The notes under the pieces were generated by a model. The model saw only the letters and a program-made list of their open reading frames with translations, did not search any database and had not been told where the DNA came from. The translations under genes and the position numbers were made by a program. From positions 55,102-119,101 of IMG/VR virus record IMGVR_UViG_3300025645_000042: DNA of 64,000 bases; one strand, written 5' to 3'. The DNA is from a virus. Of the stretch, positions 27,582-42,822 are shown piece after piece. Each line of letters opens with the position of its first letter. Position 1 is the first letter of the stretch.

Positions 27582-28616
27582 CTATTTAATCAAATTTTTA
27601 GGTGCTTTATTTTTATATTTTTTTTCTAAATCTTCTAAGCGATAATCTTCCATCATAAATTTACCATTTATAATTGGTGTCGCCATAAATTTTAAAACGT
27701 AGTGTCCATTGAATTCCACCACTTTATGGAAATTTTTAACTTCATAAATATATTCCATTCCATTTGCAGCACCAATTGTTTTATTGGTTATAAACCCCAC
27801 TTTTTCGATGTCTAAAATATCAGATGCCCTAGGATTTTTATTAATTTTCTTAATTTCACTAATTAATAACCTACTTTTCCGATTGAATTCATCTGGGTAC
27901 ATCGTGATATAGAACTCTAGTAATTTAGTTTCACCATCTACATCTCTAACAACTAATTTATTACAGTATTGTTCGATTTCAAATTTAGGCCTTATACTTC
28001 TATGTATCATGATATTTTTATCATTCTTCATACTAGCTACCATATCATCAAAACTAAGTTTAGCTAACGTTCTACCATCTTCTTTTCCTATTTCCACTTC
28101 AATATCTTCTCCAAATTCATTAGTTTCATATCTTACATTAATTAAATCAAACATTTCATTAGTTTCATCGAAAGTTTCAATTTCTTCATCGGTATGAACT
28201 TTTAATTTTTCATTACCAAAAGCCTCTGAAGTTGATTTAACGACCTCATTATTACTAACCACAAGTTCAACTGGATGTGGGTCACCTTTATCAACATTTA
28301 CCTTCCTAAGAATTTGTTTCTCATGTTCAGTAGTTTCAGTTATTGGTAAGTTATCCTCATCATATCCAATGATTTTGGTTTTAAGACTATCCGCAGCATT
28401 CAATACCTTATACATCCTCCATCTCATTTCCTTAACTTCCATTGTGAGAACACCCTTTAACATGTTATCAGCCATAGAACCTTGTTCCATTGTTTCATTT
28501 GAAGCACCTTCTTTACCTAAAGCGTCTGAGGCTTGATTTAATGATGATTTCTCAACTCTTGATAATGCTAATGAAAGCATTGCCATTTTTCTTTTTAGAT
28601 AAGTTGTTATATCCAT
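27582..28616 (-). CDS. Uncharacterised protein, 344 aa
   Basis: Not recognised. A helical N-terminus (about 1-85, MDITTYLKRKMAMLSLALSR) is followed by acidic mixed alpha/beta domains (DVDGETKLLEFYITMYPDEF near 228). No signal peptide, membrane helix or catalytic motif. It is the final gene of the glycan operon, overlapping rmlD-like by 10 bp and followed by a strong terminator. Its sequence does not resemble sugar enzymes, so it may be a phage structural or assembly protein co-transcribed with them. Confidence 0.7.
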   Translation of the reverse strand: MDITTYLKRKMAMLSLALSRVEKSSLNQASDALGKEGASNETMEQGSMADNMLKGVLTMEVKEMRWRMYKVLNAADSLKTKIIGYDEDNLPITETTEHEKQILRKVNVDKGDPHPVELVVSNNEVVKSTSEAFGNEKLKVHTDEEIETFDETNEMFDLINVRYETNEFGEDIEVEIGKEDGRTLAKLSFDDMVASMKNDKNIMIHRSIRPKFEIEQYCNKLVVRDVDGETKLLEFYITMYPDEFNRKSRLLISEIKKINKNPRASDILDIEKVGFITNKTIGAANGMEYIYEVKNFHKVVEFNGHYVLKFMATPIINGKFMMEDYRLEDLEKKYKNKAPKNLIK

Positions 28617-29284
28617 TTTTCTAATTTATTTAAATCCATTGTAACATTTTCTGGTACATATGGTGGTCTTAACGTTCCTAATATATTAGGTTTAGTTTCT
28701 TTAGCTAAATTCAACATGGTTTTAGCCTTCGTACCAACATTTATTATTCCTATGGCACCTTTATTGATTAATTTAATAATTAACTCAGAAATGACATCCA
28801 CGTAATCTGCATTCGTATAATAATTGCCCCACGCTTTTTCATAGGGAAATGGTTTTGCTTTATGACTACATCTACATATTAAATAATCATTAGAATTTAA
28901 CATAATTAATTCATCTGCCAATACTTTTGAATATGCATACCATGAATTATCACACCTAGGAATATCTTCTTCCTTCGCAAAAAAGTTATTATTAGCATAT
29001 ACAAAATCACTTGATATGTGAATCAATTTAATATTGTGTTTATTACAATATTTTATTAAATCTCTAACAAAACGAACATTAACATCCATATGAGTGTCAC
29101 GTTCTTTTGAATAAGAGTCTGTATGTGCGATACAGTTTACTATTACATTATAACCTTTAGAAATTAAATGTAAATTATTTATATCAAAATTACCCCACTT
29201 ACGTGAGACAAAATCCCAATCAGTTTGTTTAACCAATTCGGAACCTAATAAACCATCACCTAAAACTAAAACTTTATAATTCAT
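28607..29284 (-). CDS. dTDP-4-dehydrorhamnose reductase-like SDR (RmlD-like), short
   Basis: 225 residues, shorter than the usual 290. The NAD(P)-binding motif is GDGLLGSELV (9-18). CIAHTDSYSKERD matches the RmlD CxAYTxVDxAE region, IHISSDFVYANNNF matches the STDYVFDG region, and YAYSKVLADE carries the Tyr/Lys pair. The C-terminal substrate region is reduced. In the standard pathway RmlD makes dTDP-rhamnose after RmlC; no RmlC is seen here, so it may reduce another 4-keto sugar. It overlaps the epimerase gene by 11 bp. Confidence 0.82.
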   Translation of the reverse strand: MNYKVLVLGDGLLGSELVKQTDWDFVSRKWGNFDINNLHLISKGYNVIVNCIAHTDSYSKERDTHMDVNVRFVRDLIKYCNKHNIKLIHISSDFVYANNNFFAKEEDIPRCDNSWYAYSKVLADELIMLNSNDYLICRCSHKAKPFPYEKAWGNYYTNADYVDVISELIIKLINKGAIGIINVGTKAKTMLNLAKETKPNILGTLRPPYVPENVTMDLNKLEKWI

Positions 29285-30287
29285 TATTAAGTAAAATATT
29301 ACAAATGTATTTAGAAGCTAATCCATCACCATATGGGCAAATACCTTCTTCTATCTCATAATTTTTAATGTGTTCATTGAATGCATCTTTTAATGATGAA
29401 TAATGTGAAATTAAAAAACTGGATAAACCTAAAGCTTCTGGCCTTTCAGTTGTTTCTCTACAAACTAAACATTTTTTATTAAAAAAAGAACACTCTTCTT
29501 GGAGTCCTCCACTATCAGTAATAACTAATTTAGATTTAATTAACAACTTCATTAAATTATCGTGTGGTAAAGGGTTAGTTACCGTTAGATTTGTTAATAA
29601 ATGTCTATATTTTTGAACCTTTGGATTTGGGTGAATTGGAATTATAAAACTTAATTCTGGATGTTCCCCAGCTAAGTCATTAATTTCTCTAAACCAATTC
29701 GCAATATTATGATGATTCTCACGCCTATGCATTGTAACTAAAACAATGTTTTCATATTGACATATTTCTTTATAATGTATTAGATTATCTAAAACAGTAT
29801 TACCAACTACAAACACTTTTTTATGTATATTTTCTTTGGCTAAATTAATTTTACTTTGTTCTGTTGGACAAAAATGAATATCAGTTATAGTTGAGACCAT
29901 TCTCCTATTATTTTCTTCAGGAAATGGATTTAACTTATCATAAGTTCTTAAACCAGCTTCTAAATGTATAATTTTAATCTGTCTATTCATTGCTGAAATT
30001 GCTAACCCAAGAACTGAAGTTGTGTCTCCTTGAACTAGAATGTGAGTTACACCATCAAACACATATTCAGGAATTGATAAACAATTCTTTAAAATAGCAT
30101 TTAATCTATTTTCATCTTCAGATTCAAGCATTCTCCAAACATAATTAGCATTTTTAGGTGCTATATCTTCATGTTGACCAGTGAATAATATTTTATGTGG
30201 AATTAAATTCATTTTCATTTCCTCAATCAATGGTTTAATTTTTATATATTCGGGTCTGGTTCCGTATGTGACTAATATATTCATCAT
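29274..30287 (-). CDS. wecB: UDP-N-acetylglucosamine 2-epimerase (WecB-like)
   Basis: GT-B-fold epimerase making UDP-ManNAc or an analogous 2-epimer. Signatures in order: TYGTRPEYIKIKPLI (8-22), VQGDTTSVLG (about 95), HLEAGLRTYDKLNPFPEENN (about 120), VTMHRRENHHN (about 185), DNLMKLLIKSKLVITDSGGLQEE (about 250) and a short RETTERPEAL. All catalytic-region residues appear present. Length 337 is slightly shorter than the usual 370. Two adjacent ATG codons open the gene. It overlaps the genes on both sides in the sugar operon. Confidence 0.93.
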   Translation of the reverse strand: MMNILVTYGTRPEYIKIKPLIEEMKMNLIPHKILFTGQHEDIAPKNANYVWRMLESEDENRLNAILKNCLSIPEYVFDGVTHILVQGDTTSVLGLAISAMNRQIKIIHLEAGLRTYDKLNPFPEENNRRMVSTITDIHFCPTEQSKINLAKENIHKKVFVVGNTVLDNLIHYKEICQYENIVLVTMHRRENHHNIANWFREINDLAGEHPELSFIIPIHPNPKVQKYRHLLTNLTVTNPLPHDNLMKLLIKSKLVITDSGGLQEECSFFNKKCLVCRETTERPEALGLSSFLISHYSSLKDAFNEHIKNYEIEEGICPYGDGLASKYICNILLNNEL

Positions 30288-30967
30288 TCCACAAATTTTC
30301 TTAAATATTCTACATCCTCATTTGATAATCTTTTCCCTGTGATTTCGGATATGTACCATGTTGGTCTTAATTTACCCCCCACTCTATATAAGTGACCCAA
30401 ATCCATCACATGTTTATGTTTTGTCCCAAGTATTATCTTACCATCATTTTTCGCCACATCCCTTAATTCCCATTGCCAAGGACTTAAACCTAATTCAAAA
30501 TGTTTCATAAAATATGATGTTCTCCACATACCATACGAAATAGATAATCTGTAATCGGCATCTTGCCTTGTTTTAATCAAATTATCAGTATAATGACCAC
30601 CTTTATAATAATCTTTACAGTATGGTGTCATTTTAATATTAACCACATCTTTATTTTCATCCATTACTGTTTTAAATTCTTCTATCAAATCTAAATTAAT
30701 CTCATCCAACGTTACTACGTCATCACTACCATATATAAAATATTCATCTTTGAAGTCTTTAAAAAATTTATATATGTCATTGGTAAAAGATTGCGGTCCT
30801 GTATCAACCCCTAAGCTTATAAATTTCCAAGAACCCATATCAAATGTTGGTTGTTTAAAACCGAGTACTGTTACGTCTAAATCTTTACCACCGAATTTAT
30901 CCATGGTAAATTTATTTGCTTGAATTAATTTAAGATATTTATCACAAGTAGGGATTATTATTCTCAT
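30284..30967 (-). CDS. Glycosyltransferase-like protein (GT-A type)
   Basis: 227 residues. MRIIIPTCDKYLKLIQAN at the N-terminus and YFIYGSDDVVTLDEI (about 75, with a DD motif for metal/donor binding) support a GT-A enzyme. TPYCKDYYKGGHYTDNL and a late SPWQWELRDVA segment may shape the acceptor site; acidic and aromatic residues there resemble phage and capsule GTs. No membrane helix. It is one base from gmd and overlaps the epimerase gene by 4 bp. Donor and acceptor unknown. Confidence 0.75.
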   Translation of the reverse strand: MRIIIPTCDKYLKLIQANKFTMDKFGGKDLDVTVLGFKQPTFDMGSWKFISLGVDTGPQSFTNDIYKFFKDFKDEYFIYGSDDVVTLDEINLDLIEEFKTVMDENKDVVNIKMTPYCKDYYKGGHYTDNLIKTRQDADYRLSISYGMWRTSYFMKHFELGLSPWQWELRDVAKNDGKIILGTKHKHVMDLGHLYRVGGKLRPTWYISEITGKRLSNEDVEYLRKFVE

Positions 30968-31962
30968 TATCTAAGTGATTCTTTTTTATTTAAAATATCC
31001 ATCCAATGGTCTACCATTTCATGTAACATCGATTCAAATGTGTATGTCGGTTTCCATCCCAGATTTTCTCTAATTTTTGTAGAATCTCCCTTTAAATAAG
31101 GTAATTCTTCTGGTCTTAAAAATTTAGGGTTTTGAACTACGTAATTTTTATAATCCATATCTAAATAAGAAAAAACAATATCACACATCTCTCTAACCGA
31201 ATGGGTTTCCATTGTAGAAACTACATAATCATCTGGTTTTTCAGCATTCATAATCATATGCATTGCCCTAACATAATCTTTAGAATGACCCCAATCCCTA
31301 TATGAATCCATATTACCTAATTCTAATTTGTCTTGTAAACCTAATTTTATTTTACAGGCAGCTTTAACAACTTTATTTGTTACGAAATTACTACCTCTTC
31401 TAGGGGATTCATGATTAAATAGGATACCATTAACTGCATGTAATCCATACGCTCTTCTATAATGTCTAACTATATTATAGCCAAATATTTTAGAGCATCC
31501 ATATGGGGATACTGGATTCATTATAGTATTTTCTCTTTGGAACCCGTCATCCTCAACGGTTAAACCAAACATTTCCGAAGATGATGCTTGATAAAATTTA
31601 GCATTAGGGCAAATTCTTTTATAAGCCTCTAATATATTTATAACTCCAACTGCGTTTGTTTGTACAGTAAATTGTGGGATATCAAAACTAACTCTAACAT
31701 GACTTTGAGCAGCAATATTATAAATTTCATCTGGCATAATTTCAGTTAGTAACCTTTCTATAGATGTCTGGTCTAATAAGTCTCCATAATGAGTTTCAAT
31801 TCTAGGGATTGATTCAAACGCCTTAACCAACCTAGCTGATTGATTCTCTGATGTAGAATTTCTTCTAACCATTCCATGAACTTTATAACCCAAAGATAGT
31901 AAGTATTCGCTAAGATAAGAACCATCTTGCCCATTAATGCCTGTTATAAATGCTGTTTTCAT
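30967..31962 (-). CDS. gmd: GDP-mannose 4,6-dehydratase (Gmd)
   Basis: Converts GDP-mannose to GDP-4-keto-6-deoxymannose, precursor of fucose, perosamine and related sugars. The 331-residue protein has TGINGQDGSYLSEYLL (8-23), VRRNSTSENQSARL, QSHVRVSFDIP, ASSSEMFG with the catalytic Ser/Glu, and SPYGCSKIFGYN with the Tyr/Lys pair. LFNHESPRRGSNFVTNKV and a late DSYRDWGHSKDYV complete the family pattern. No GDP-fucose synthase (Fcl) is seen in the window. A 4-amino product through the neighbouring DegT-like gene, as in GDP-perosamine synthesis, is therefore plausible. Confidence 0.95.
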   Translation of the reverse strand: MKTAFITGINGQDGSYLSEYLLSLGYKVHGMVRRNSTSENQSARLVKAFESIPRIETHYGDLLDQTSIERLLTEIMPDEIYNIAAQSHVRVSFDIPQFTVQTNAVGVINILEAYKRICPNAKFYQASSSEMFGLTVEDDGFQRENTIMNPVSPYGCSKIFGYNIVRHYRRAYGLHAVNGILFNHESPRRGSNFVTNKVVKAACKIKLGLQDKLELGNMDSYRDWGHSKDYVRAMHMIMNAEKPDDYVVSTMETHSVREMCDIVFSYLDMDYKNYVVQNPKFLRPEELPYLKGDSTKIRENLGWKPTYTFESMLHEMVDHWMDILNKKESLR

Positions 31963-32549
31963 TTTTTAAAAATTTTCATTTCTGTTAAATCTGGCCAATC
32001 ATTAATAACCCATTTTTTGGGTGATGTTCTAATTGCTTCATCTAATTTATTTAATCCATTTTGTGCAGTTTCTGGTGTCATATAATAATGATAACCCATA
32101 ATGTCAATATTTTGCTCCCTCCAAGGAACATCAGGTAATCTACCATCATATGACATTTTTTTAAGAGTTTCGGCAGCTCTTTTATCGTTGGTTAAAATTA
32201 TCCCACCCCTACCTAAACTTAAATGTTTTCTAAATTGAAAGCTTACACACATAAATGTAGAGTCAATATATGAATCTTTTTTCCAAAGTACAGCGGCATC
32301 AATTATATTTTTAGTTAAATAATAATAATCTTCCCAATTTTCATCTTTCCACGCTAAATCAATATTTAATTTGTTGGCCAAAAAAGGTATCGATATATAT
32401 GTACGTTTTGGTACTTCAATTTTTTCAATTTTTTCATATCTTAAACATAATTCAATTCCATGAGTACAACAATCAACAGCTATAGCATATTTAGAACCGA
32501 AAAATTTAGCTATTTTATTCTCAAAATTTTCAATTACATTAAAACTCAT
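31959..32549 (-). CDS. Half-length DegT/DnrJ/EryC1-like aminotransferase, copy A
   Basis: 196 residues against about 370-400 for the family. It keeps the N-terminal FENKIAKFFGSKYAIAVD, an Asp in NIIDAAVLWK (Asp83, pyridine N contact), and the Schiff-base Lys108 in SFQFRKHLSLGRGG. It also keeps the MGYHYYMTPETAQNGL stretch that resembles the end of the large domain. The small C-terminal domain is missing. It could be a minimal active PLP enzyme or a degenerate one. A paralogue lies at 37358-37999. Its place beside gmd suggests amination of a 4-keto sugar. Confidence 0.78.
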   Translation of the reverse strand: MSFNVIENFENKIAKFFGSKYAIAVDCCTHGIELCLRYEKIEKIEVPKRTYISIPFLANKLNIDLAWKDENWEDYYYLTKNIIDAAVLWKKDSYIDSTFMCVSFQFRKHLSLGRGGIILTNDKRAAETLKKMSYDGRLPDVPWREQNIDIMGYHYYMTPETAQNGLNKLDEAIRTSPKKWVINDWPDLTEMKIFKK

Positions 32550-33075
32550 AACCTAATTTTTTAGCATTTTCAAGTATAATATCTTTTTCTCTTAATTTTA
32601 CTGGTTTAGCTGGGCTACCCACATAAATTGTCCAAGGTTCAGTATCTTTAGTTAATAAAGAATTTGCTCCTAATACGGAACCTTCAGCCATTCTGACACC
32701 TGGCATAATAGTACAATTAACTCCACAACCAGCAAATCTTTCTATTGTTATAGTTGAATAGGTGATAACTCTAAGTTCTTTAGGTATTGTTGGTCCAATT
32801 AATCCTTTGCCAGTAAAATCTTCACTACCACATACTATTTTACTTCCAGCCCCTATAAAACTAAAATCTTCAAGAATTAAGAATGATTCAACACCACCTA
32901 TTATAGTTACATTTGGTGCTATATGGATATAATCTTTCATTTTCATTGAGGTTGAAATTGTTACCCAATTATCAATGGCATTGTGGGACCCTATATCACA
33001 TTTATGTGGGCGTTTAATTATCGCTGTGTCGTGGATAAAAACATCTTCCCCAATACTTTTATAATCTTTATTCAT
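32539..33075 (-). CDS. Left-handed beta-helix acyl/acetyltransferase (WbbJ/LbH type)
   Basis: 178 residues with hexapeptide repeats: IGSHNAIDNWVTIS, IHIAPNVTIIGG, FSFIGAGSKIVCG, GCGVNCTIMPGVRMAEGSVL then GANSLLTKDTEPW and VGSPAKPVK. This is the trimeric LbH fold of O- and N-acyltransferases using CoA or ACP donors. The final xPAKPV segment is typical for sugar acetyltransferases. A catalytic His is possible near IHIAPN. It lies between the DegT-like and carbamoyltransferase genes, overlapping the former by 11 bp. It may acylate the amino sugar; the acyl group is unknown. Confidence 0.88.
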   Translation of the reverse strand: MNKDYKSIGEDVFIHDTAIIKRPHKCDIGSHNAIDNWVTISTSMKMKDYIHIAPNVTIIGGVESFLILEDFSFIGAGSKIVCGSEDFTGKGLIGPTIPKELRVITYSTITIERFAGCGVNCTIMPGVRMAEGSVLGANSLLTKDTEPWTIYVGSPAKPVKLREKDIILENAKKLGYEF

Positions 33076-34628
33076 TATTTATTTTTTTTAATTAATATCC
33101 CATAATCATAGAAATATAGATAATCGATATTCGTGCCGAGAAAACAATTTATTGCATTTTCAGGTGTTTCAACTATAGGTTCTCTATCATTAAAACTAGT
33201 GTTAAGTAATATTGGAACGTTAGTTTTATTATACCATAGTTTTATAAAATTATAATACCATTTATTATTGTTTTCAGTAACAGTTTGTAATCTACCCGTA
33301 CCATCATAATGACATACTGCGGCAACCTTAGATTTCATCTCATCTTTAAATTTTATTACAAATGACATGTAAGGACTATCAACATCTCTAACAAACCAAT
33401 CCTTAACATATTCTTTAAGAATTGACGGAGCAAATGGTCTAAACCACTGTCTATGCTTAACTTTTTCATTAATGATATCTTTCATAGTTTCACTTCTAGG
33501 GTCTGCCAATATACTTCGATTACCTAAAGCTCTTCTACCAGATTCAGAACCACCACCAAAAACAGAAATTATTTTTTGTTCATTTAAATATTCTATTACA
33601 TCAGCGTCATTAACATATGATACTTCACACTCATCTTTATGATTATTAATGGCTTCTAATACATCATTTTTACTATATATTTTACCTAAATAGGAACTTG
33701 ATTGGTCCTCCCATTTTATTCTAGGGTTATCTAAAATATGATGCCAGACATATCTAGCACTCCCTAAAGATAATCCACCATCATAAGGTACTGGGTCACA
33801 ATATATGTCTTCTATTTCTGGAAACCAATCGAATACTTTACCCATCATAACACAATTAAGGGAAACCCCACCAGAAAAACATAATTTTTTAGGTTTATAT
33901 TTTTCAATAAATGGTATTAAAGTACTACGAACAATATCTTCAGTATATTTTTGTAAAGAAGCTGCAACGTTAAATCTTTCTTGTTCAGATTTATTAGCTA
34001 TATCTCTTAATTTGCTATAATTTTTAGTTTTTATATCTGTAACATATTTTGGTTCACCTAAAGTGGCCATCCCCATCACAGTACCAGCTTGATTACCAAT
34101 AGGGTGTCCTATTGATAACTCAAATATTTTTTCAGTACACTCAACCCATAAACAACCTAAACAAAGACTATACGGTAAAAGTTCTATTGAGGTTACTTTA
34201 TTATCTTTCCCTTCCCAAATAGTAAAAGCTGAAGGTCTAGAATAATCGTCCCATCCACCACCATCTATAGTGATAATTAAAGCTTCGTCAAAATTACTAG
34301 AAAAAAAAGCGTTAGATGCGTGTGATTGATGATGTCCGATTTCATAATATTTTCCACCATTTTTTGCCGCCATAACATTCATTTTATCTTGATATTTTTG
34401 AATACCACAAATACTTTTCCATCTACCGCCACTTCCACCAAAATTACCTAATGTGAAATACTTAATATCACCCATATCTGGATTTTGGTCAAAAAACATT
34501 TTTAGACCATCACCTAAAGGTTCTTTTAATCTTATAATTCGTTCTAACTCTTCATGTATTAAAGGTACACCATTTTCCAATATTGTATAAGAAACGTCAT
34601 GACCTGATTGAAACCCTACTATTTTCAT
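33075..34628 (-). CDS. NodU/CmcH-family carbamoyltransferase
   Basis: Transfers a carbamoyl group from carbamoyl phosphate, through a carbamoyl-adenylate, to a hydroxyl. The 517-residue protein has the TsaD-like N-terminal domain with HHQSHASNAFFSS (metal-binding His), IITIDGGGWDD, CFSGGVSLNCV and PVPYDGGLSLG. The C-terminal YrdC-like part has GGGSESGRRALGNRS, ILADPR, WFRPFAPS and LLNTSFNDREP. Family length is normally about 540-600, so it is slightly short but carries all motifs. Carbamoyl sugars occur in Nod factors and O-antigens. It shares a base with the LbH gene and overlaps the cupin gene by 4 bp. Confidence 0.93.
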   Translation of the reverse strand: MKIVGFQSGHDVSYTILENGVPLIHEELERIIRLKEPLGDGLKMFFDQNPDMGDIKYFTLGNFGGSGGRWKSICGIQKYQDKMNVMAAKNGGKYYEIGHHQSHASNAFFSSNFDEALIITIDGGGWDDYSRPSAFTIWEGKDNKVTSIELLPYSLCLGCLWVECTEKIFELSIGHPIGNQAGTVMGMATLGEPKYVTDIKTKNYSKLRDIANKSEQERFNVAASLQKYTEDIVRSTLIPFIEKYKPKKLCFSGGVSLNCVMMGKVFDWFPEIEDIYCDPVPYDGGLSLGSARYVWHHILDNPRIKWEDQSSSYLGKIYSKNDVLEAINNHKDECEVSYVNDADVIEYLNEQKIISVFGGGSESGRRALGNRSILADPRSETMKDIINEKVKHRQWFRPFAPSILKEYVKDWFVRDVDSPYMSFVIKFKDEMKSKVAAVCHYDGTGRLQTVTENNNKWYYNFIKLWYNKTNVPILLNTSFNDREPIVETPENAINCFLGTNIDYLYFYDYGILIKKNK

Positions 34629-35038
34629 TCTATAAATTTTTTATCTAAGTTTTGACCTTCATATGGCCCAGTTTTATATTCATACACAATTGTATCATCT
34701 TCCAATATTTCATAAGTATGACCACCATATAAAGTGAAACTAGCATCTCCCTCACCCAATATAGGGGTTGCTATTATTGTATCGTCAATATCATAAAATA
34801 TACATTTCACCCTACCTTTAATTACTACCCATGATTCTTGAGCTATTTGTTCTTTATATGTCCTTTCTTTCTTTATATGTTTATGGGGTTTAAATGTAGT
34901 TCCCTTTTCCATTCTAAGTGTTGCACATTGAATGAATTCTTTATCATCTACAATATTAGTTCTACCCTCTATTTCAGGTTTACGAACTACCATATGTAAT
35001 AATAATTCTGGTTTTATTTTAGAATATATTTTCTCCAT
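34625..35038 (-). CDS. Cupin-fold protein (WbuC-like)
   Basis: 137 residues. Cupin motif 1 is FKPHKHIKKERTYKEQIAQE, with two His and a Glu further on. Motif 2 is TLYGGHTYEILEDDTIVYEY, with the third His. WbuC-type cupins accompany O-antigen clusters and end with similar YEYKTGPY strings, as here. The enzymatic step is not established for the family. It overlaps the carbamoyltransferase by 4 bp. It is distinct in sequence from the head-cluster cupin at 5910-6410. Confidence 0.78.
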   Translation of the reverse strand: MEKIYSKIKPELLLHMVVRKPEIEGRTNIVDDKEFIQCATLRMEKGTTFKPHKHIKKERTYKEQIAQESWVVIKGRVKCIFYDIDDTIIATPILGEGDASFTLYGGHTYEILEDDTIVYEYKTGPYEGQNLDKKFIE

Positions 35039-35041
35039 TTT

Positions 35042-35764
35042 TTATAATCCCCCATCTATTTTTAAATTAGTACCAGCCACGTACTCATTATCAATAATAT
35101 AATTTATTGTATTATATAATTCTTCGGCAGTACCAAACCTCTTTAATCCTACTTTATCTTTAGCCATTTGAATATATTTTTCATCTACTCTATATGCCAT
35201 TCCACCATCCCAATAACCTAATTGTATTGTATTACATGTAATGCCGAATCTTACATTTTCTTTATTAGCAGTCCCCATCAATCTATCTACGAATGCCTTT
35301 GACGCACAGTATATTGAATTCTTAGGTACGTTCATTTTAGAAAAAACAGATGAAATTGCAATCACTCTACCATACTTATTTTCAATCATTCTTGGTAAAC
35401 ATCCAGCTAATATATTAACATTACCCATCATATTTACATTCATCATTTCAGAAATACTCTCCACATCACTTTCACTAATTTTACTTAAAAAGGTATCATA
35501 TTTCTTTCCACTCATATTAAGTACGATGTCTATCTCATTATCCTTAAAATATTGTTTCATTTGTACCAAATTGGTAATATCTACATCTGAACTACTTAGG
35601 GAAATTACATTATATTTTTCTTTTAATAAGGGAGTAAGTTTTTGTCCTAATCCACCACTTCCACCAAATACTACGATTGTTTTCATATCCTTTATTTTTG
35701 ACCATCCTTTACCAATATCTTCTTGAGTTAAAATAACTCTATTATCTACTATTGATTTTGCCAT
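35042..35764 (-). CDS. Short-chain dehydrogenase/reductase (FabG-like)
   Basis: 240 residues. NAD(P)-binding GGSGGLGQKL near 35-44, NMSGKK in place of NNAG, VIAISSVFS with the catalytic Ser, YCASKAFVDRLM with Tyr and Lys, and a C-terminal VAGTNLKIDGGL, which is the FabG ending. Immediately next to a FabH-like gene, it probably reduces a 3-ketoacyl thioester to the 3-hydroxy form. An alternative is reduction of a keto sugar. The extra 28 N-terminal residues before the fold (KSIVDNRVILTQEDIGKGW) are unusual. Confidence 0.9.
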   Translation of the reverse strand: MAKSIVDNRVILTQEDIGKGWSKIKDMKTIVVFGGSGGLGQKLTPLLKEKYNVISLSSSDVDITNLVQMKQYFKDNEIDIVLNMSGKKYDTFLSKISESDVESISEMMNVNMMGNVNILAGCLPRMIENKYGRVIAISSVFSKMNVPKNSIYCASKAFVDRLMGTANKENVRFGITCNTIQLGYWDGGMAYRVDEKYIQMAKDKVGLKRFGTAEELYNTINYIIDNEYVAGTNLKIDGGL

Positions 35765-36709
35765 TTAATCTTCATAATTTATTATCATAGACCCCCAAGC
35801 CCATCCAGAACCAACTGCCGAAAATAGTATTTTATCACCTTTCTTAATTTCATTATTTTCAAATGCATCATGTAGAGCTATTGGTATCGATGCGCCAGCA
35901 ATATTTCCATATTTGTGTTGCACTGCTTTTACATTATCCATTGACATTCCAAGTTTTTTGGCAACATATTTTAATATATTGATACTTGGTTGATGAGGGA
36001 CTAGCATTTTAATATCTGATACCTCAAGACCACTTTCTTCCATTACTATTTTAATAGATTCTGGTAATACTTTAATTGCTTGGTCCCAAACTTCTCTTCC
36101 AATCATTGTAAATGGTTCTGATAATGGCATTCTGAAACCAGTCATTCCAGAGCCGTTACCATTTGACGCTATATTACTTATCGCCCAACCTTTTTTAGAT
36201 GTACCTAAAACTAACCCACCAGCACCATCACCGAAAAATACACAATTTCTATCATTTATATGGGTATGCTTTGAATATGTTTCACTAGCAACAATTAATA
36301 TTTTTTTATAAATACCACTACTAATTAATGTTGATGCGAATGACATTGCATAAACAAACCCAGCACAAACTGCATTGATATCAAATGAAGGGACATCTCT
36401 TTTAATATCTAACATAGCGTGTAGTGTACATGCGGTTGATGGTGATATTTGGTCAGGACTTGATGTTACAACCATGATTAAATCTAATTCCTCTTTATCT
36501 ACCTTAGCATTGGCTAATATTTTTATCGCAGCTTTATATGCTAAATCACCTGTAGTTTCATCTACGGTGATTCTACGTTCTAATATACCTAACTTATCTT
36601 CAACCCATTCTGGAGTTGTATCTATGTGTTTACATAATTCTTCGTTACTTACCACGTTACTTGGTAGATAAGACCCAGTACCTAATATTGTTACATTATT
36701 ATTTCTCAC
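35765..36709 (-). CDS. 3-oxoacyl-ACP synthase III (FabH-like)
   Basis: Condenses an acyl-CoA with malonyl-ACP to start an acyl chain. The 314-residue thiolase-fold protein has the full catalytic triad: Cys115 in DINAVCAGF, His239 in LVPHQPS and Asn269 in KYGNIAGAS. GSYLPSNVVSN, WVEDKLGILERR, FGDGAGGLVLG and AVGSGWAWGS are also family signatures. It abuts the FabG-like gene and overlaps FkbM by 4 bp, within a sugar cluster, so a dedicated short acyl group for an amino sugar is the likely product. No acyl carrier protein is encoded nearby; the host ACP would be needed. Unusual in a phage. Confidence 0.93.
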   Translation of the reverse strand: MRNNNVTILGTGSYLPSNVVSNEELCKHIDTTPEWVEDKLGILERRITVDETTGDLAYKAAIKILANAKVDKEELDLIMVVTSSPDQISPSTACTLHAMLDIKRDVPSFDINAVCAGFVYAMSFASTLISSGIYKKILIVASETYSKHTHINDRNCVFFGDGAGGLVLGTSKKGWAISNIASNGNGSGMTGFRMPLSEPFTMIGREVWDQAIKVLPESIKIVMEESGLEVSDIKMLVPHQPSINILKYVAKKLGMSMDNVKAVQHKYGNIAGASIPIALHDAFENNEIKKGDKILFSAVGSGWAWGSMIINYED

Positions 36710-37353
36710 AATTTTTTATTTTTATATGTTATTTCAAAATGTGTTTTAATACCATTCCCTATTGAATTAATTTCATTATGAGTTTTCTCTATTAACCTTC
36801 TTAATTCTTTCATTTTATCATCACCTAAATGTAAGTGAATTTCAATTGCAATATAATCAATATTACTCAAATCACAATTAATTAAAAAACCATATTCCCC
36901 ACCTTCACAATCTATTTTTAAATAATTTATTTTATCAATATTAAACGTCTTATAAATATCTTCTAAAGATATCGTTTCAACTTCTTCGTAGGTATCAAAA
37001 TCATAATGTTTAGCTGTAATATCACCCTTTAAGGTTGTTGCATTTCCAGAAACATTTCCATTTATAAATGGAAACAATTTAATTATTTCACCACTTTTAT
37101 TTGATACCGCATATCTATATACTGAAACATTTTCAAAATCACTTGTATTTTTAACGCATTTATCATACGTTTCTTTAGCTGGTTCTATAGATATAATTTT
37201 ATCAAATACTTTATGATTTACGTATGAAAATGCTCCAACATTAGCACCTATATCTACCGCAATCCCACCAACTCCTTTTGGAATTATGTATGCTCTTCTA
37301 ACGCCATTAATACGCTCATTAAACCAATTATTACCATCTTCAAATTTTAACAT
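36706..37353 (-). CDS. FkbM-family methyltransferase
   Basis: 215 residues, SAM-dependent. Motif I is AVDIGANVGAFSY (about 32-44), followed by IISIEPAKETYDKC, then NYLKIDCEGGEYGFL (about 141-155) and YIAIEIHLHLGDD, the standard FkbM series. These enzymes O-methylate sugars or small molecules, and in surface glycans they can cap a chain. It overlaps fabH-like by 4 bp. No C-terminal extension. Substrate unknown. Confidence 0.9.
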   Translation of the reverse strand: MLKFEDGNNWFNERINGVRRAYIIPKGVGGIAVDIGANVGAFSYVNHKVFDKIISIEPAKETYDKCVKNTSDFENVSVYRYAVSNKSGEIIKLFPFINGNVSGNATTLKGDITAKHYDFDTYEEVETISLEDIYKTFNIDKINYLKIDCEGGEYGFLINCDLSNIDYIAIEIHLHLGDDKMKELRRLIEKTHNEINSIGNGIKTHFEITYKNKKL

Positions 37354-37357
37354 ATTT

Positions 37358-37999
37358 TTATATTTTTTTATATTTTTTAAACACTGTAAATTCAGTCAAA
37401 TCTCTATATCCGTTTTCTTCGTGTAAATCAGAAACGTGATTAGGATAATTTTGCATTAATGCTATACCATGAGCTGCTATTTGTGGGGTCATATACATAT
37501 TCCACCCTAACATTGTTATATCATCTTCATGATATAATTTTTCGTTTCTACCCTCATATCTAGCTTGTTTAAACCATTTAACAGCTTCTTCATCATCACA
37601 AAGAATCATACCACCTTTACCAAGTTGTAAATGTTTTTTTATATGAAATGATAAACACATGAAACTACCCTTTATATACATGTTAGATGTAAATCTTTTA
37701 GCTGCATCATAAATAGGTAAAGGTTCTAATTGATATATGCCATTCCAAATATCTTTACTAGAATCAAATACTGGTTGAAAACCAGCATGTATTATTGATT
37801 GAGGCACAGATAAATAAGTTTTACATGGTACTTTTATTTCTTTTATGTCTTTATTTTTTTCATTAAAATATTTTAAACATAAAAATAATGCGTTTGTACA
37901 ATTATCAACTGATACTGCGTATTTAGCCCCAGTATATTCAGCAACTGTTTCTTCAAATGAACGAACAATGCTATATGCGTTTTTTCTATTATTTCTCAT
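37358..37999 (-). CDS. Half-length DegT/DnrJ/EryC1-like aminotransferase, copy B
   Basis: 213 residues. Paralogue of 31959-32549, with the same architecture: FEETVAEYTGAKYAVSVDN, Asp98 in PIYDAAKRF, Lys122 in SFHIKKHLQLGKGG, and MLGWNMYMTPQIAAHGI. Both copies end in a similar RDLTEFTVFKK or PDLTEMKIFKK string and both lack the usual C-terminal domain. Conserved truncation in two diverged copies argues for a stable short family rather than decay. It may aminate a keto sugar, or bind PLP-sugar without turnover. Confidence 0.78.
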   Translation of the reverse strand: MRNNRKNAYSIVRSFEETVAEYTGAKYAVSVDNCTNALFLCLKYFNEKNKDIKEIKVPCKTYLSVPQSIIHAGFQPVFDSSKDIWNGIYQLEPLPIYDAAKRFTSNMYIKGSFMCLSFHIKKHLQLGKGGMILCDDEEAVKWFKQARYEGRNEKLYHEDDITMLGWNMYMTPQIAAHGIALMQNYPNHVSDLHEENGYRDLTEFTVFKKYKKI

Positions 38000-38004
38000 T
38001 TTTT

Positions 38005-38766
38005 TTAATTTATTTCATCTAACCAACCATGTAATGTTACCATAAATTTTTGTGGCCTAAACCCTACACTCATATGAGATTTAGTTACCGAAAAATTATC
38101 CATTAAAACATTATGTTCCTCCCAATCAAAATTATTGGCTATGCCCCATTCTAAGGCAATAATATCTATATCAGGGAATAAACCTTTTCTTCTGTGATTT
38201 GGGCTTACAGCACCTATTACTCCAGCGGCATATGTTTTATCTTCTTCAATAAATTTTTTATATGCTATATAACCAGCAACTTCATCATCTTTAGAAGCAA
38301 CAAATATTTTACTTGCCACATTATCATTAATACATGAATTATAAGCCCAATCCACATATGCATTTAAACTATCTTTAGAATCTAATCTTTTATCTGCACC
38401 GTAGTGACCATAATTTTTAAATGATTGTTTTGTTATATCAACAATCATATCAGTATCAGAATCTTTAAATTCTCTTAAAATATAACCATCATTCCTTTCA
38501 ACTTTTTTAAATACGTAATTACCATCTCTATCTGTAAAGGTATTACGAAGTGTACATTGAGTGTCTTTAATTGTGAAACCACGTTTCTCAAGAGAATTTA
38601 TTATATCTAATCGTGAGAAATCTATTCTTGCGAATATTAATTCATAATTAAATTGTTTGAAATACTCTATTGAATCTTCAACACTGATATCATCAAAGAA
38701 GTTATCATCTATTTTACCAATTTTAAATCCAAATCTATTACTATTTATTTCACTATATATACTCAT
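38005..38766 (-). CDS. GNAT acetyltransferase (WecD-like)
   Basis: 253 residues from the ATG at 38766. An ATG at 38799 would overlap the upstream gene by 29 bp, so the later one, 4 nt after that stop, is chosen. The acetyl-CoA loop is GAVSPNHRRKGLF (about 190-202), preceded by beta strand KIFVASKDDEVAGYIAYKKF and followed by a C-terminal VTKSHMSVGFRPQKF, the end pattern of WecD and related amino-sugar acetyltransferases. The N-terminal 110 residues form the second, degenerate GNAT-like half. It probably N-acetylates a 4-amino-6-deoxy sugar made by the DegT-like enzymes. Confidence 0.87.
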   Translation of the reverse strand: MSIYSEINSNRFGFKIGKIDDNFFDDISVEDSIEYFKQFNYELIFARIDFSRLDIINSLEKRGFTIKDTQCTLRNTFTDRDGNYVFKKVERNDGYILREFKDSDTDMIVDITKQSFKNYGHYGADKRLDSKDSLNAYVDWAYNSCINDNVASKIFVASKDDEVAGYIAYKKFIEEDKTYAAGVIGAVSPNHRRKGLFPDIDIIALEWGIANNFDWEEHNVLMDNFSVTKSHMSVGFRPQKFMVTLHGWLDEIN

Positions 38767-38770
38767 ATAA

Positions 38771-39523
38771 TTACCAAATACAAATTTTATGATTACCATG
38801 TTTTAAATAACCCCTATTAGTGTCAACTCCTAAGAATAAATTTAACCCAGTTCCTATATCAAAATATGTGTTTTCTTTTTCTTCTAAAAATAGTTTATGG
38901 ATTAAAACTTCACTTAATGATGAGGCTGAAAATAAAAATACATGGTCTTTAATATTATTATCTTTTACCCATTTAATGATTTCATCAGATATGTCAAAAT
39001 TGTTAATCATACAATTATTACCAACTCTAAAATCTTTTTCAACTTTAAAAGGTAATTTTTCCAAATTTAAAGTCTCGTTACCAATAAAAACAATTTTTTT
39101 ATCATTAAATAATGGAACTATTTCATTTGTAAACCTATTAAAATTACCATTTATAAAAAGGTTGGCCCAAGTTAAATGTTCATCGTCACCACCTCTAAGA
39201 TTTACTTGCCAATCAAAAGCCTCTTGACCTACACAACACCTACAACTAAGCCCCACAAAATAATTCTCATCTTTATATTTAAACGCATCTTTTAAAGCAT
39301 CATAAAAAAAATGATGTTTACTAGAATCAACTTCTTTATAATTTATTGGGTCATAAGAACCACTATTTCTTACCCCATCAATCTCATACCATCCATTCCC
39401 CAATTTAGTGGTTTTATCCATAAGGAGATACATTTCCCCATCAGAAAATCTACCATATGCGAAATTTTCATTAGCTTTTAATTTTTCTAAAAATAAATTG
39501 AAATGTCCTTCAAATGTTTTCAT
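38771..39523 (-). CDS. Glycosyltransferase, GT-D fold (DUF1792-like)
   Basis: 250 residues. FAYGRFSDGEMYLLM (about 21-35) matches the RxGDGE motif of DUF1792/GT-D enzymes, whose DxE coordinates metal and UDP-sugar. Downstream FVGLSCRCCVGQEAF, then KKIVFIGNETLN and a final FSASSLSEVLIHKLF plus TYFDIGTGLNLF are consistent with that fold, where the last motif lies close to the sugar nucleotide. It overlaps the GT2-like gene by 4 bp. No membrane segment. Confidence 0.8.
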   Translation of the reverse strand: MKTFEGHFNLFLEKLKANENFAYGRFSDGEMYLLMDKTTKLGNGWYEIDGVRNSGSYDPINYKEVDSSKHHFFYDALKDAFKYKDENYFVGLSCRCCVGQEAFDWQVNLRGGDDEHLTWANLFINGNFNRFTNEIVPLFNDKKIVFIGNETLNLEKLPFKVEKDFRVGNNCMINNFDISDEIIKWVKDNNIKDHVFLFSASSLSEVLIHKLFLEEKENTYFDIGTGLNLFLGVDTNRGYLKHGNHKICIW

Positions 39524-40287
39524 TTTCTTACTTTTTTAACTGTTTGCCAATCTTTATCTATTAATTGAGAAACGATACTATTTCTTAATCCAATATGATT
39601 TGAATGAGTTAAAGAATGTGCGTTTTTATCGTAACCCCAATTATTATCCCTTGCTGGTACGTTTGACCAACTTTCAATATCATTTGGATTATGTGCTGGT
39701 ACATAAGTTTTTAACCCCATATACTTTTGAGCCGCATAAGAGAAAAACATATCTTCACCATTATCCCAACTAGGTGGTTTTTCCATCCACATTACCTTAG
39801 CTGTTTCTTGTTTGAAGAACCAAGCATGACCCACTAAATCTACATATGTCTTTCCATCGTTATGTTGACCATTCCAACCGACTACTGTATTTGGTCTATA
39901 TGCTTTATTATGAACTATAATTCCACTACCACCTAAAATTCCATCTTCTTCATTAATACAATTCATACAGTTTCTTAACCAATCTTTACCACATACCACA
40001 TCATCATCAAACATCGCTATATATGGTGTTTTACATAAAAGAGGTAATGTAAATCTACCCCAGAATTTTGTATTATGACTGCAATGATAAAATTTAACAC
40101 CTTTACTCATATATTCAGCAATGACTTTCATCAAAGTTAATGAGTCTTCCATATCACTTTCACCTTCAACTTTATTAACCCAAATATGGATATCTTCAGG
40201 TAATACCAACCCTGTAGCTAATACAGCTTCAATTTGGGATTCCAATGTGTAAGGTCTTTTATAAACGTTTAAAATTACTGATATCAT
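39520..40287 (-). CDS. Glycosyltransferase, family 2-like (GT-A)
   Basis: 255 residues. MISVILNVYKRPYTLESQIEA at the start, TPYIAMFDDDVVCGKDWLRN with a DDD donor/metal motif (about 92), and WMEKPPSWDNGEDMFFSYAA (about 172) with a candidate catalytic acid. Soluble. It overlaps both neighbours by 4 bp in the sugar operon. Donor and acceptor unknown. Confidence 0.88.
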   Translation of the reverse strand: MISVILNVYKRPYTLESQIEAVLATGLVLPEDIHIWVNKVEGESDMEDSLTLMKVIAEYMSKGVKFYHCSHNTKFWGRFTLPLLCKTPYIAMFDDDVVCGKDWLRNCMNCINEEDGILGGSGIIVHNKAYRPNTVVGWNGQHNDGKTYVDLVGHAWFFKQETAKVMWMEKPPSWDNGEDMFFSYAAQKYMGLKTYVPAHNPNDIESWSNVPARDNNWGYDKNAHSLTHSNHIGLRNSIVSQLIDKDWQTVKKVRK

Positions 40288-41141
40288 TCTGGTATATATT
40301 TTCTCATTTTTTTAATATTCATCTTATTTCCAGCTCTTAAGAAGTTAATCATCTCCTTACCTTTCAAACCAAAATAATCTTCAGCTGCCGCACCATAGTT
40401 ATTAAGGTTATTATTCACACTACTTGGTCCAACATAAGTTGTCAAAACATCTAATCCTAAACATTTAGCTTCAACAATAATTCTACAATACGTTTCTCTG
40501 GCCGCTGGAAAGAACACCAATTTAGAATACTTAGACATATCAGTTAAAAAACCTTCACGACCAGTACCATTTTGAATAAACCCGTAAGGGATTTCATTCT
40601 TCGTACAGTAATCAATAGCACCTTGAGAATTCTTAATCCAGTTGTTGGTGTTGTAAATACAAGCTTTACCATTCTTTTCCAAATTCTCATCATATAACCT
40701 TTCCATAAGTTTAAGGTCATCTTCAGACCATATGTTGGTCCTCATATTAATGAAATTTGCTTCAACCCCATTTTTCTTATAAACGTTTAAATGGTCGGCT
40801 GATTTAACAAAAACAGCTTTAGCATTTTTATATAAATCATAATTTTGTCTTAATTCCTTTGGGATGATATCATTTGGGTATCTCCATGGATGTCTTGATT
40901 GGAGGATTTTATAATCACACTCAAAAATTATATAATTAAATTTATATATTTGTGATACTAAATCTGGATGCATAAGTGATATGTTCGAAATAATATAGAA
41001 ATCATCATAACTAAAACCCGTAACTTCTCTTGATTTCCAAAATTTTAAATCAAAATGTTCAATAAGCATTTGATTACCAACTTCTGAACCACCATGTGGC
41101 ATTTCTGCATAACTAAAATCTGATATTAATATATTAGCCAT
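40284..41141 (-). CDS. Glycosyltransferase, GT-B type
   Basis: 285 residues. The N-terminus ISDFSYAEMPHGGSEVGNQML has the acceptor-side GGSE loop of GT4 enzymes. The C-terminal SKLVFFPAARETYCRIIVEA then CLGLDVLTTYVG corresponds to the donor-binding E-x-E region. Shorter than a typical GT4 (about 370), so the C-terminal Rossmann domain is reduced. It overlaps the 49-aa gene upstream by 8 bp. Confidence 0.8.
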   Translation of the reverse strand: MANILISDFSYAEMPHGGSEVGNQMLIEHFDLKFWKSREVTGFSYDDFYIISNISLMHPDLVSQIYKFNYIIFECDYKILQSRHPWRYPNDIIPKELRQNYDLYKNAKAVFVKSADHLNVYKKNGVEANFINMRTNIWSEDDLKLMERLYDENLEKNGKACIYNTNNWIKNSQGAIDYCTKNEIPYGFIQNGTGREGFLTDMSKYSKLVFFPAARETYCRIIVEAKCLGLDVLTTYVGPSSVNNNLNNYGAAAEDYFGLKGKEMINFLRAGNKMNIKKMRKYIPE

Positions 41142-41283
41142 TTATTACAATTTTAAATTCATTGTATAATTCTTCAGCAGAATAATACTTATTTTCTTTG
41201 ACCCAAACATATTTATTATATTCAAACCCATTTTCTTTAGCCCAATGTAATATGTTAACCGCCAACGCTGTTTCTTTTTCCAT
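41134..41283 (-). CDS. Very small protein, 49 aa
   Basis: Reads from an ATG at 41283 to a TAA at 41134, beginning MEKETALAVNILHWAKENGF and ending with YYSAEELYNEFKIVING. The W-A-x-x-N-G, WVKENK and EELYNEF pattern is common in small uncharacterised proteins of phages of Bacteroidota. It starts 1 nt after the upstream stop and overlaps the downstream start by 8 bp, filling an otherwise empty gap. Function unknown. Confidence 0.65.
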   Translation of the reverse strand: MEKETALAVNILHWAKENGFEYNKYVWVKENKYYSAEELYNEFKIVING

Positions 41284-41284
41284 A

Positions 41285-42007
41285 TTAAATGACTTTAAAT
41301 TGTTTTTTTTTCATTTCATCCATATACTTCATTGGTGGTCTAGTCCAGTGACCCGATAACCCAGTCTTTTGCATTTGCTCATTTCTCCTTTTAGCTAACA
41401 TATCATATCTCCATAGAACATACTCCTTACCTAAAAACTTGTAATGAAGTAACTTGAATTCTGGTCTTTCTGAAAACTTACCATTCTGTGCTTTGAAAGA
41501 GTGAGAACCGATACCGAATTTAATATCCAGTTTTGGGTCAAAAATAATATTTTTACTCATTACCTCATAAACATCAGAACCATATTTAACTTTATTGGTT
41601 AATAACTCACCATCATATTCAGGAAATTCATCAGAATACATATCATGACCATCAATTTTGGGTACTGTTACACCGCTTTTTTTATACTCTTCCAATTTCT
41701 TTAATAGATTTGGGTGATATAAAAATTCATCACAATCACATACAATTACCCAATCAACACCTTTGGTCCTACTTTGTTTATATGCACTATTCCTAATATT
41801 TACTTGCTGAAATTCATCATACTTACCATCAGCATTTTGCCATTTTTTTACAACAACATTATCATATTCTTTATAAATTTCATCAGAATCGTCATCCGAC
41901 ATATTATCATAAACGTATATTTTTTCACAAAACAGTGAATAATGGTCTAAAGTGTATCTTAATATTTTAGCTTCATTCCAAGCTATTATATGTGCGTGTA
42001 TTATCAT
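41285..42007 (-). CDS. Glycosyltransferase, family 2/92-like
   Basis: 240 residues. MIIHAHIIAWNEAKILRYTL (a WNE start typical for these enzymes), IYVYDNMSDDDSDEI, and VDWVIVCDCDEFLYHP with the DxD motif (about 85-100). The C-terminal LLHYKFLGKEYVLWRYD matches GT92/GT2 relatives. Soluble. It overlaps the GT-B gene upstream by 4 bp. The same domain type is found in cyanophage and algal-virus glycan clusters. Confidence 0.88.
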   Translation of the reverse strand: MIIHAHIIAWNEAKILRYTLDHYSLFCEKIYVYDNMSDDDSDEIYKEYDNVVVKKWQNADGKYDEFQQVNIRNSAYKQSRTKGVDWVIVCDCDEFLYHPNLLKKLEEYKKSGVTVPKIDGHDMYSDEFPEYDGELLTNKVKYGSDVYEVMSKNIIFDPKLDIKFGIGSHSFKAQNGKFSERPEFKLLHYKFLGKEYVLWRYDMLAKRRNEQMQKTGLSGHWTRPPMKYMDEMKKKQFKVI

Positions 42008-42822
42008 ACTTCTATAGGTATTTCTAATTTATTTAACCACATATTAAGAATTTGCTCATTCGTAAATGGTGATACTTCATGTTCGGTTTCTTCATTACCG
42101 AAAAATTTAGTTCCAGTTGACCAACATTCGTCTTTAACAAGACATGCCACTTCACCAATTGATGAGTGATAAACCCTACCAATCATATCATACATTTCTT
42201 GTTTACTTTCGGTATAACCATATTCAATTATTTTTGGCGACATTAATAATGGTTTAACTTCTTTATTATAATAATGGTCATTACCTACTTTACCAAAAAG
42301 ATATATTTTAGTACACTTATCTTTTAATGCTCGTTGAATTGAAATATGTGTTTGTTTTCTACTTTCAATACTACCAACAATTCCAGCAACTTTATCAAGT
42401 TCTGGTTTATCTTTTTTCTCTAAGATATTTTTTAAATTCGGTATTATTGAATGTGGTCCAGAATATTTACTTAGATTATTTATGTGATAATTAGCATGTT
42501 CTTGGTGAAGAAAAATCACTTCATCCCAATATGGATTAACACCACCAACATCAAACCACCACTTTTCATGACAAGCCAATACAACTTTTTTAGCGTTAGG
42601 TCTTTCACCTAGTTTAATGAAATGTGTAATTACACTATCTTCTGGGGTTATATTTTTTAAAGCATCAACTGTATATAAAGCACCATTACATTTATTCAAA
42701 TGATATTGATGTGGTCCAAATAAAATTGTTTCATAGCCCATTTCATTTAATTTATTAGTTAAATTAATTAAAACAACGGTTGAGCCACCTCTTTCGCTAT
42801 ATCCAGTTATTATTTTTATCAT
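42004..42822 (-). CDS. Glycosyltransferase, GT-B type
   Basis: 272 residues. IITGYSERGGSTVVLINLTN is a GG-loop N-terminus of GT4 enzymes. KVAGIVGSIESRKQTHISIQ, then CTKIYLFGKVGNDHYY and YGYTESKQEMYDMIGRVYHS follow the donor-domain layout (about 145-225). The usual E-x7-E is partly seen as SSIGEVACLVKDE. One base overlap with the large GT gene upstream. No membrane helix. Confidence 0.84.
   Translation of the reverse strand: MIKIITGYSERGGSTVVLINLTNKLNEMGYETILFGPHQYHLNKCNGALYTVDALKNITPEDSVITHFIKLGERPNAKKVVLACHEKWWFDVGGVNPYWDEVIFLHQEHANYHINNLSKYSGPHSIIPNLKNILEKKDKPELDKVAGIVGSIESRKQTHISIQRALKDKCTKIYLFGKVGNDHYYNKEVKPLLMSPKIIEYGYTESKQEMYDMIGRVYHSSIGEVACLVKDECWSTGTKFFGNEETEHEVSPFTNEQILNMWLNKLEIPIEV

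Follow-up and report, generated by a model that had tools for sequence, protein, structure and literature searches.

A phage sugar operon with a FabH-like condensing enzyme: a proposed route to N-(3-hydroxyacyl) amino sugars

Why does a phage keep a FabH-like condensing enzyme in the middle of a sugar operon? The question is posed by virus record IMGVR_UViG_3300025645_000042 (119 kb), of which we analyzed positions 55102-119101; this stretch of 64,000 nucleotides is termed the window, and its own coordinates are used throughout. The minus strand of the window carries, in order, genes for a ketoacyl synthase III (KASIII), a ketoreductase (KR), a cupin, a carbamoyltransferase, a left-handed β-helix acyltransferase (LbH), a DegT-family aminotransferase and a GDP-mannose 4,6-dehydratase-like protein (GMD), the gene ends abutting or overlapping. 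The usual reading of a phage sugar cluster is one of glycosyltransferases plus nucleotide-sugar enzymes; here, the phage apparently makes an acyl group for an amino sugar, too. From sequence comparisons and predicted structures, we propose that the product of the operon is an N-(3-hydroxyacyl) amino-sugar nucleotide and that phage glycosyltransferases use this product, a reading to which we assign a probability of roughly 0.7. The sugar is probably an N-(3-hydroxyacyl) 4-amino-4,6-dideoxyhexose with 3-hydroxybutyryl as its acyl group.

The KASIII gene (35765-36709, minus strand) starts with GTG and encodes a 314-aa member of the FabH superfamily, of the type found in polysaccharide clusters. 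The protein exceeds the cut-offs of curated models (310.1 bits against 292.1 for NCBIfam TIGR00747 fabH, and 318 against 249 for PRK09352), and the preliminary description of this locus was right to place an intact triad at C115, H239 and N269. All three residues are invariant among the phage homologs; the scan for relatives used a pattern that selects FDINAVC, which by itself accounts in part for the constancy of Cys115 among them, whereas H239 and N269 lie outside the selected motif. The KASIII and KR genes are both intact and under purifying selection (for the two genes, KASIII included, dN/dS against relatives is 0.09-0.27 among comparisons with unsaturated dS). The protein shares fold family, Cys-His-Asn triad and size with FabH, yet it is not a housekeeping FabH. 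It is encoded outside a fab cluster, falls in a clade separate from the E. coli and rpmF-linked enzymes, and carries six changes (R36K, T37L, F87S, K214D, R249N and F304V), including loss of K214 and R249, which presumably dock acyl carrier protein (ACP) in FabH.

The stop codon of KASIII abuts the ATG of the KR gene (35042-35764, minus strand), whose 240-aa product belongs to the short-chain dehydrogenase/reductase (SDR) fold family and has an invariant N111/S139/Y152/K156 tetrad. Relatives start 26 codons further in, at the ATG at 35686, and the first 26 residues may therefore be untranslated. Because the protein scores well under every FabG equivalog cut-off (95 against 298 bits for TIGR01830), “ketoreductase-like” is a safer label than FabG: the adjoining reductase of the preliminary description is present, but its assignment is better kept at the level of the SDR tetrad. 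Likewise, the interval 34625-36709, previously presented as a gene pair, does contain both genes, but also a third, a WbuC-family cupin (34625-35038, minus strand; TIGR04366 45.6, cut-off 42). A search for solved structures returned no relative of this cupin at a useful E-value. In phages and in some bacteria (e.g., at 355-753 of a Saprospiraceae locus, L087), the cupin gene lies in tight linkage with genes for an AntD-like acyltransferase and a KASIII, which offers a hint to its role.

The most informative partner of the KASIII/KR pair is the LbH protein (32539-33075, minus strand), whose best full-length match in both sequence and fold is AntD, the N-acyltransferase that acts in anthrose synthesis. 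A profile of 25 phage rows matches AntD chains with an E-value of 1.5e-49. The AlphaFold2 model (pLDDT 93.7) aligns over 175 residues to AntD with a Z of 26.9, the next family reaching 21.0 in this structural ranking (VIA), which is a re-ranking of Foldseek matches; identity over the structural alignment is 28-29%. Of the two residues that have been probed in AntD, S84 and D94, the position of the latter is acidic in all 25 rows (E85 in the window). AntD entry 3vbj is a complex with dTDP and 3-hydroxybutyryl-CoA, and 3vbi holds dTDP-4-amino-4,6-dideoxyglucose. Given the modeled likeness, we propose that LbH attaches the 3-hydroxyacyl chain.

The likely source of the amino group is a DegT-like protein of only half the usual size (31959-32549, minus strand; 196 aa). 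Its best profile match is GDP-perosamine synthase, and 183-195 residues of its model (pLDDT 94.8) align to sugar aminotransferases with Z of 17-19. The pyridoxal phosphate (PLP) lysine, K108, is invariant among 25 sequences, as are D84 and A86. The protein thus has the PLP lysine, the DAA aspartate and the fold of the DegT/DnrJ/EryC1/StrS family, but not its full length; it lacks a middle segment and the larger share of the C-terminal part. We rejected the notion that it is a pseudogene, as reading frames are kept across loci, dN/dS is 0.07-0.25 and the predicted fold is confident. A second half-size DegT (37358-37999, minus strand; 213 aa) lies nearby, and the family may have no smaller members than these two. 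Copies of the short DegT occur in an uncultured 642 kb phage (LR756502, 72% identical) and in Synechococcus phage S-SCSM2R (51%); in the latter (L132, 8315-12671), it stands among genes for a radical SAM protein, an inosamine amidinotransferase, a 2OG-dioxygenase and a glycosyltransferase, with no annotated KASIII. In the window, the short DegT gene is overlapped by that of GMD (30967-31962, minus strand), which scores 384 against TIGR01472, just under the cut-off of 415.

Is this gene set a peculiarity of one phage? Scans of IMG/VR for KASIII recovered 13 loci with the single sequence and 49 contigs with an alignment. Among 39 non-redundant loci (window included, near-duplicates removed, several contigs ending nearby), LbH and DegT are each linked to KASIII in 33, KR in 25, the cupin in 21 and GMD in 20. 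In some relatives, similar proteins of about 300 aa are encoded between LbH and DegT (L005 3266-4198, L007 7268-8170 and L008 12125-13027); by Pfam, that of L008 is a PhyH-type dioxygenase, which could possibly add a hydroxyl to the acyl chain or the sugar.

We built a tree with E. coli FabH and paralogs from seven genomes, in which all sampled KASIIIs of phages group together in a single clade (support 98/95). Its sister (99/96) comprises KASIIIs from polysaccharide clusters of Bacteroidota and related bacteria, and the joint branch (97/93) stands apart from rpmF-linked and E. coli FabH. A wider quick tree places 37 of the 39 phage rows in one clade, with two long-branched rows outside. From these trees, the phage KASIII looks like a virus-resident lineage rather than a recent host capture. 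A scan of bacterial genome contigs yielded no match with the close phage KASIIIs; counterparts were found with a broader alignment. They include DegT-LbH-KASIII-KR sets (L053, L108, L116 and, in Ignavibacteriales, L062), a cupin-LbH-KR-KASIII set in Saprospiraceae (L087) and a KASIII-KR pair near Wzx and glycosyltransferase genes in Chryseobacterium (L051). These loci resemble the phage operon in their neighbors (DegT, LbH and KR, plus the WbuC cupin in L087) as well as in their sister-clade KASIIIs. They differ in having a full-length DegT, Wzx linkage (L051 and L062) and a KASIII that mostly retains R249. The bacterial sets and the AntD-like neighbor support the previous suggestion that the pair could make a 3-hydroxyacyl chain for an amino sugar, an N-acyltransferase being its natural partner, though not the specific sugar then suggested. 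A strong AntD-like LbH was present in only 3 of 296 Flavobacteriales genomes; one of these three loci lies beside a WbuC cupin and Wzx, and another reads DegT, AntD-like LbH, ACP, AMP-ligase, KR (L170, 5585-9436), an arrangement that would load an acyl chain in an alternative way, without KASIII.

A mundane explanation would be that the phage KASIII and KR just raise the initiation of host type II fatty-acid synthesis. KASIII does exceed the FabH family cut-off, and fab genes (acpP, fabF and fabG) have been reported in roseophages, expressly without fabH (PMC8224337). However, neither an ACP, a FabD nor a further fab gene lies alongside, the genes keep their place within a sugar operon, the phage KASIIIs group as sister to polysaccharide-cluster enzymes and apart from housekeeping FabH, and the pocket and docking residues are altered. 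On context, phylogeny and residues, we rejected this role as very improbable.

Our scheme draws on computed gene content, catalytic residues, folds, conserved linkage and phylogeny; from these we infer the substrates, chain length, thioester carrier and acceptor. KASIII would condense a malonyl thioester with a short acyl-CoA that serves as primer (in the simplest version acetyl-CoA), and the SDR would reduce the 3-oxoacyl product to a 3-hydroxyacyl thioester, which is 3-hydroxybutyryl if the primer is acetyl; a C4 chain is the simplest case. GMD and the half-size DegT would convert GDP-mannose to a perosamine-like GDP-4-amino-4,6-dideoxyhexose, to whose amino group the AntD-like enzyme would move the hydroxyacyl chain. 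Finally, phage glycosyltransferases would use the sugar, most likely on proteins of the phage itself and perhaps as a terminal cap.

Several observations weigh against this scheme. AntD S84 is G75 in the window LbH (among the 25 phage rows, the position is Gly in 18, Ser in four and Ala in three). FabH F87 and F304, which we take to line the acyl (primer) pocket, are S89 and V299 in the window KASIII; the two changes are predicted to widen the pocket, and the primer may therefore be other than acetyl-CoA. Competent catalysis by a DegT of 196 aa is presumed, the family length being about 360-390 aa. Fourteen of the 39 loci, some on truncated contigs, have no adjacent KR, and the 3-oxo acid itself or a host FabG may thus be used there. 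Lastly, the window encodes a dTDP-glucose 4,6-dehydratase (RmlB; 14293-15354, score 409 against a cut-off of 365).

With RmlB in the window and a dTDP sugar as AntD's own substrate, a viosamine-like sugar becomes possible. The acylated sugar would then be a dTDP-4-amino-4,6-dideoxyhexose (viosamine- or thomosamine-like) derived from the RmlB product, with KASIII, KR and LbH acting as in the Pseudomonas syringae modified viosamine or Bacillus anthrose pathways and GMD serving another sugar. VioB, like AntD, acts on dTDP sugars, and two DegTs with two candidate N-acyltransferases would suffice for two amino sugars. On the other hand, RmlB stands about 16 kb from the sugar operon, whereas the GMD gene runs into that of DegT and is conserved along with it in 20 of 39 loci, and GDP-perosamine synthase is the closest match of the short DegT. 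We therefore consider a dTDP sugar less likely and retain the GDP-linked sugar in the proposed pathway.

On which carrier is the chain built? The preliminary description supposed host ACP, which now seems doubtful. A scan for the PF00550 ACP domain, which gave a positive control in 11 of 14 genomes, detected none in 15 phage records (these may be incomplete), and seven records showed no FabD domain. FabH K214 and R249 correspond to D209 and N244 in the window; across phage KASIIIs, position 214 is mostly acidic and position 249 is Asn in 27 of 37, whereas both residues are kept in all eight FabH paralogs. Because neither ACP nor FabD was found in these records and the docking positions have become Asp and Asn, CoA thioesters appear at least as likely as host ACP. 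In an entirely CoA-based version of the pathway, KASIII would be an acetoacetyl-CoA synthase, as NphT7 is, the SDR would be an acetoacetyl-CoA reductase in a role like that of PhaB, and LbH would use 3-hydroxybutyryl-CoA, the ligand seen with AntD. The bacterial precedents and L170 have ACPs in the cluster, R249 is kept in 22 of 24 bacterial polysaccharide-cluster KASIIIs, and a host ACP could possibly dock differently; even so, we lean slightly toward the CoA version. It refines the proposed pathway and contradicts only the earlier choice of host ACP.

The acceptor may be sought among the phage's own proteins. In seven phage records, there was no WbaP (initiating transferase), Wzx-type flippase or Wzy_C domain; by inference, cytosolic acceptors such as virion proteins are therefore favored. 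The KASIII operon is surrounded by glycosyltransferases and flanked by tail genes and a fiber-like open reading frame (ORF). The cytosolic-type glycosyltransferases (39520-44336, minus strand) have Pfam matches at 39520-40287, 41285-42007 and 42822-44336, and the intervening minus-strand ORFs (40284-41141 and 42004-42822) have no family match. The fiber-like ORF (49795-56880, on the strand opposite to the cluster; 2361 aa) is repetitive, has YadA-head repeats and adjoins the glycosylation cluster; it is a possible acceptor. Alternatively, the acylated sugar could be added to host lipopolysaccharide during infection, where it might mask receptors or serve superinfection exclusion. Modification of host O-antigen is common among phages, and the related bacterial genes lie in O-antigen clusters; the missing flippase, initiating transferase and Wzy_C protein nonetheless make this alternative a doubtful one.

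That KAS and KR make acyl groups for glycans is an established idea for bacterial O-antigens and flagella. The viosamine island of P. syringae (vioA, vioM, vioT, vioS, vioB, vioR and acp) has likewise a KASIII, KR, N-acyltransferase, aminotransferase and methyltransferase. Its vioS, vioR, vioB and acp are proposed to yield N-(3-hydroxy-1-oxobutyl)-2-O-methylviosamine for flagellin, and vioR and vioM mutants have been analyzed by mass spectrometry (PMC3927599). The phage cluster also unites KAS, KR, N-acyltransferase and aminotransferase but has no dedicated ACP. The bacterial island is dTDP-based, has its own ACP and decorates flagellin; the phage set has GMD, the WbuC cupin and an aminotransferase of half the usual size instead. 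Similarly, the phage LbH resembles AntD of Bacillus cereus along its full length and at the acidic D94 position, but differs at S84 and probably in using a GDP-linked substrate.

The preliminary description was correct on the structure of the Flavobacterium psychrophilum O-antigen, whose cluster has its own KAS, ACP, KR and acyltransferase genes; wfpC-wfpG are the proposed source of its dihydroxyhexanoyl group, to be placed on a 4-amino sugar (PMC6519341). That the phage imitates this Qui2NAc4N derivative is not borne out. The bacterium has two KAS genes and an ACP, a 3,5-dihydroxyhexanoyl chain and UDP-Qui2NAc4N made via pglF/pglE. The phage has one KASIII and no ACP, with GMD and a perosamine-synthase-like DegT nearby, and its record contains no clear PglF/FnlA-type dehydratase, the best PF02719 match being RmlB. 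FucNAc synthesis was rejected on the lack of a clear FnlA-type dehydratase in the record, despite a WecB-type UDP-GlcNAc 2-epimerase (29274-30287; TIGR00236 238, above the cut-off of 210) and a short RmlD-like NDP-sugar reductase (28607-29284), both on the minus strand. A bolder and rather improbable extension of our proposal is that the KASIII belongs to an old lineage resident in large phages, serves a CoA route free of carrier protein with a stripped-down aminotransferase and acts twice, its opened pocket (F87S, F304V) accepting 3-hydroxybutyryl-CoA as a primer; the resulting 3,5-dihydroxyhexanoyl chain would give the virion a host-like acyl sugar.

Other genes may elaborate the product. 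These minus-strand neighbors encode a NodU/CmcH-type carbamoyltransferase (33075-34628; among annotated loci, found at this position only in the window phage), an FkbM-family methyltransferase (36706-37353) and a GNAT acetyltransferase-like protein (38005-38799), for which O-carbamoylation of the sugar, O-methylation of the sugar and a second N-acylation, respectively, are possible roles.

The window encodes a terminase, a portal, a T4-type major head protein and a gp5-like baseplate protein, and the phage is thus a T4-like myovirus. We rejected mis-binning of a bacterial contig for the window on the presence of terminase, portal and major head protein, and consider it unlikely for the relatives, as 10 of 15 records tested have a T4-type head protein (phrog_138). 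The portal ORF (1502-4792, 1096 aa) has HNH-endonuclease matches at about residues 265-348 and a portal match at 633-923, possibly reflecting an intein or homing insertion. By terminase, the Flavobacterium phages “immuto” are the nearest in culture, and the head protein likewise puts them in the top group. In phage vB_FspM_immuto, a PglD-like gene neighbors that of a short DegT; in contrast to the window, no KASIII or KR was found in it, and its LbH is only weakly similar (60 bits).

We found no phage-borne KASIII/KR glycan pathway in PHROGs, credible INPHARED records or the literature, subscription journals being mostly outside this coverage. INPHARED matches to KASIII in “phage” records of Listeria, Staphylococcus, Enterococcus and Helicobacter were not counted, as all are below 60% identity and most are short, unannotated, host-like contigs. 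The pathway type is known in bacteria, and the novelty previously claimed therefore narrows to its residence in phages: what is new is a phage-resident lineage, a missing ACP, lost FabH ACP-docking residues and a mini aminotransferase. The module is real and conserved: dozens of divergent large phages, all uncultured, retain this variant of a pathway known from bacteria. Its presence leads us to expect a specific sugar, detectable by chemical means, on virions or on infected hosts. The module would also represent a bacterial-type antigen pathway that naturally dispenses with ACP, and it includes a candidate for the smallest aminotransferase acting on sugars. Should the sugar mimic an antigen of the host surface, the finding would bear on the ways in which Bacteroidota phages evade or exploit their hosts' surfaces.

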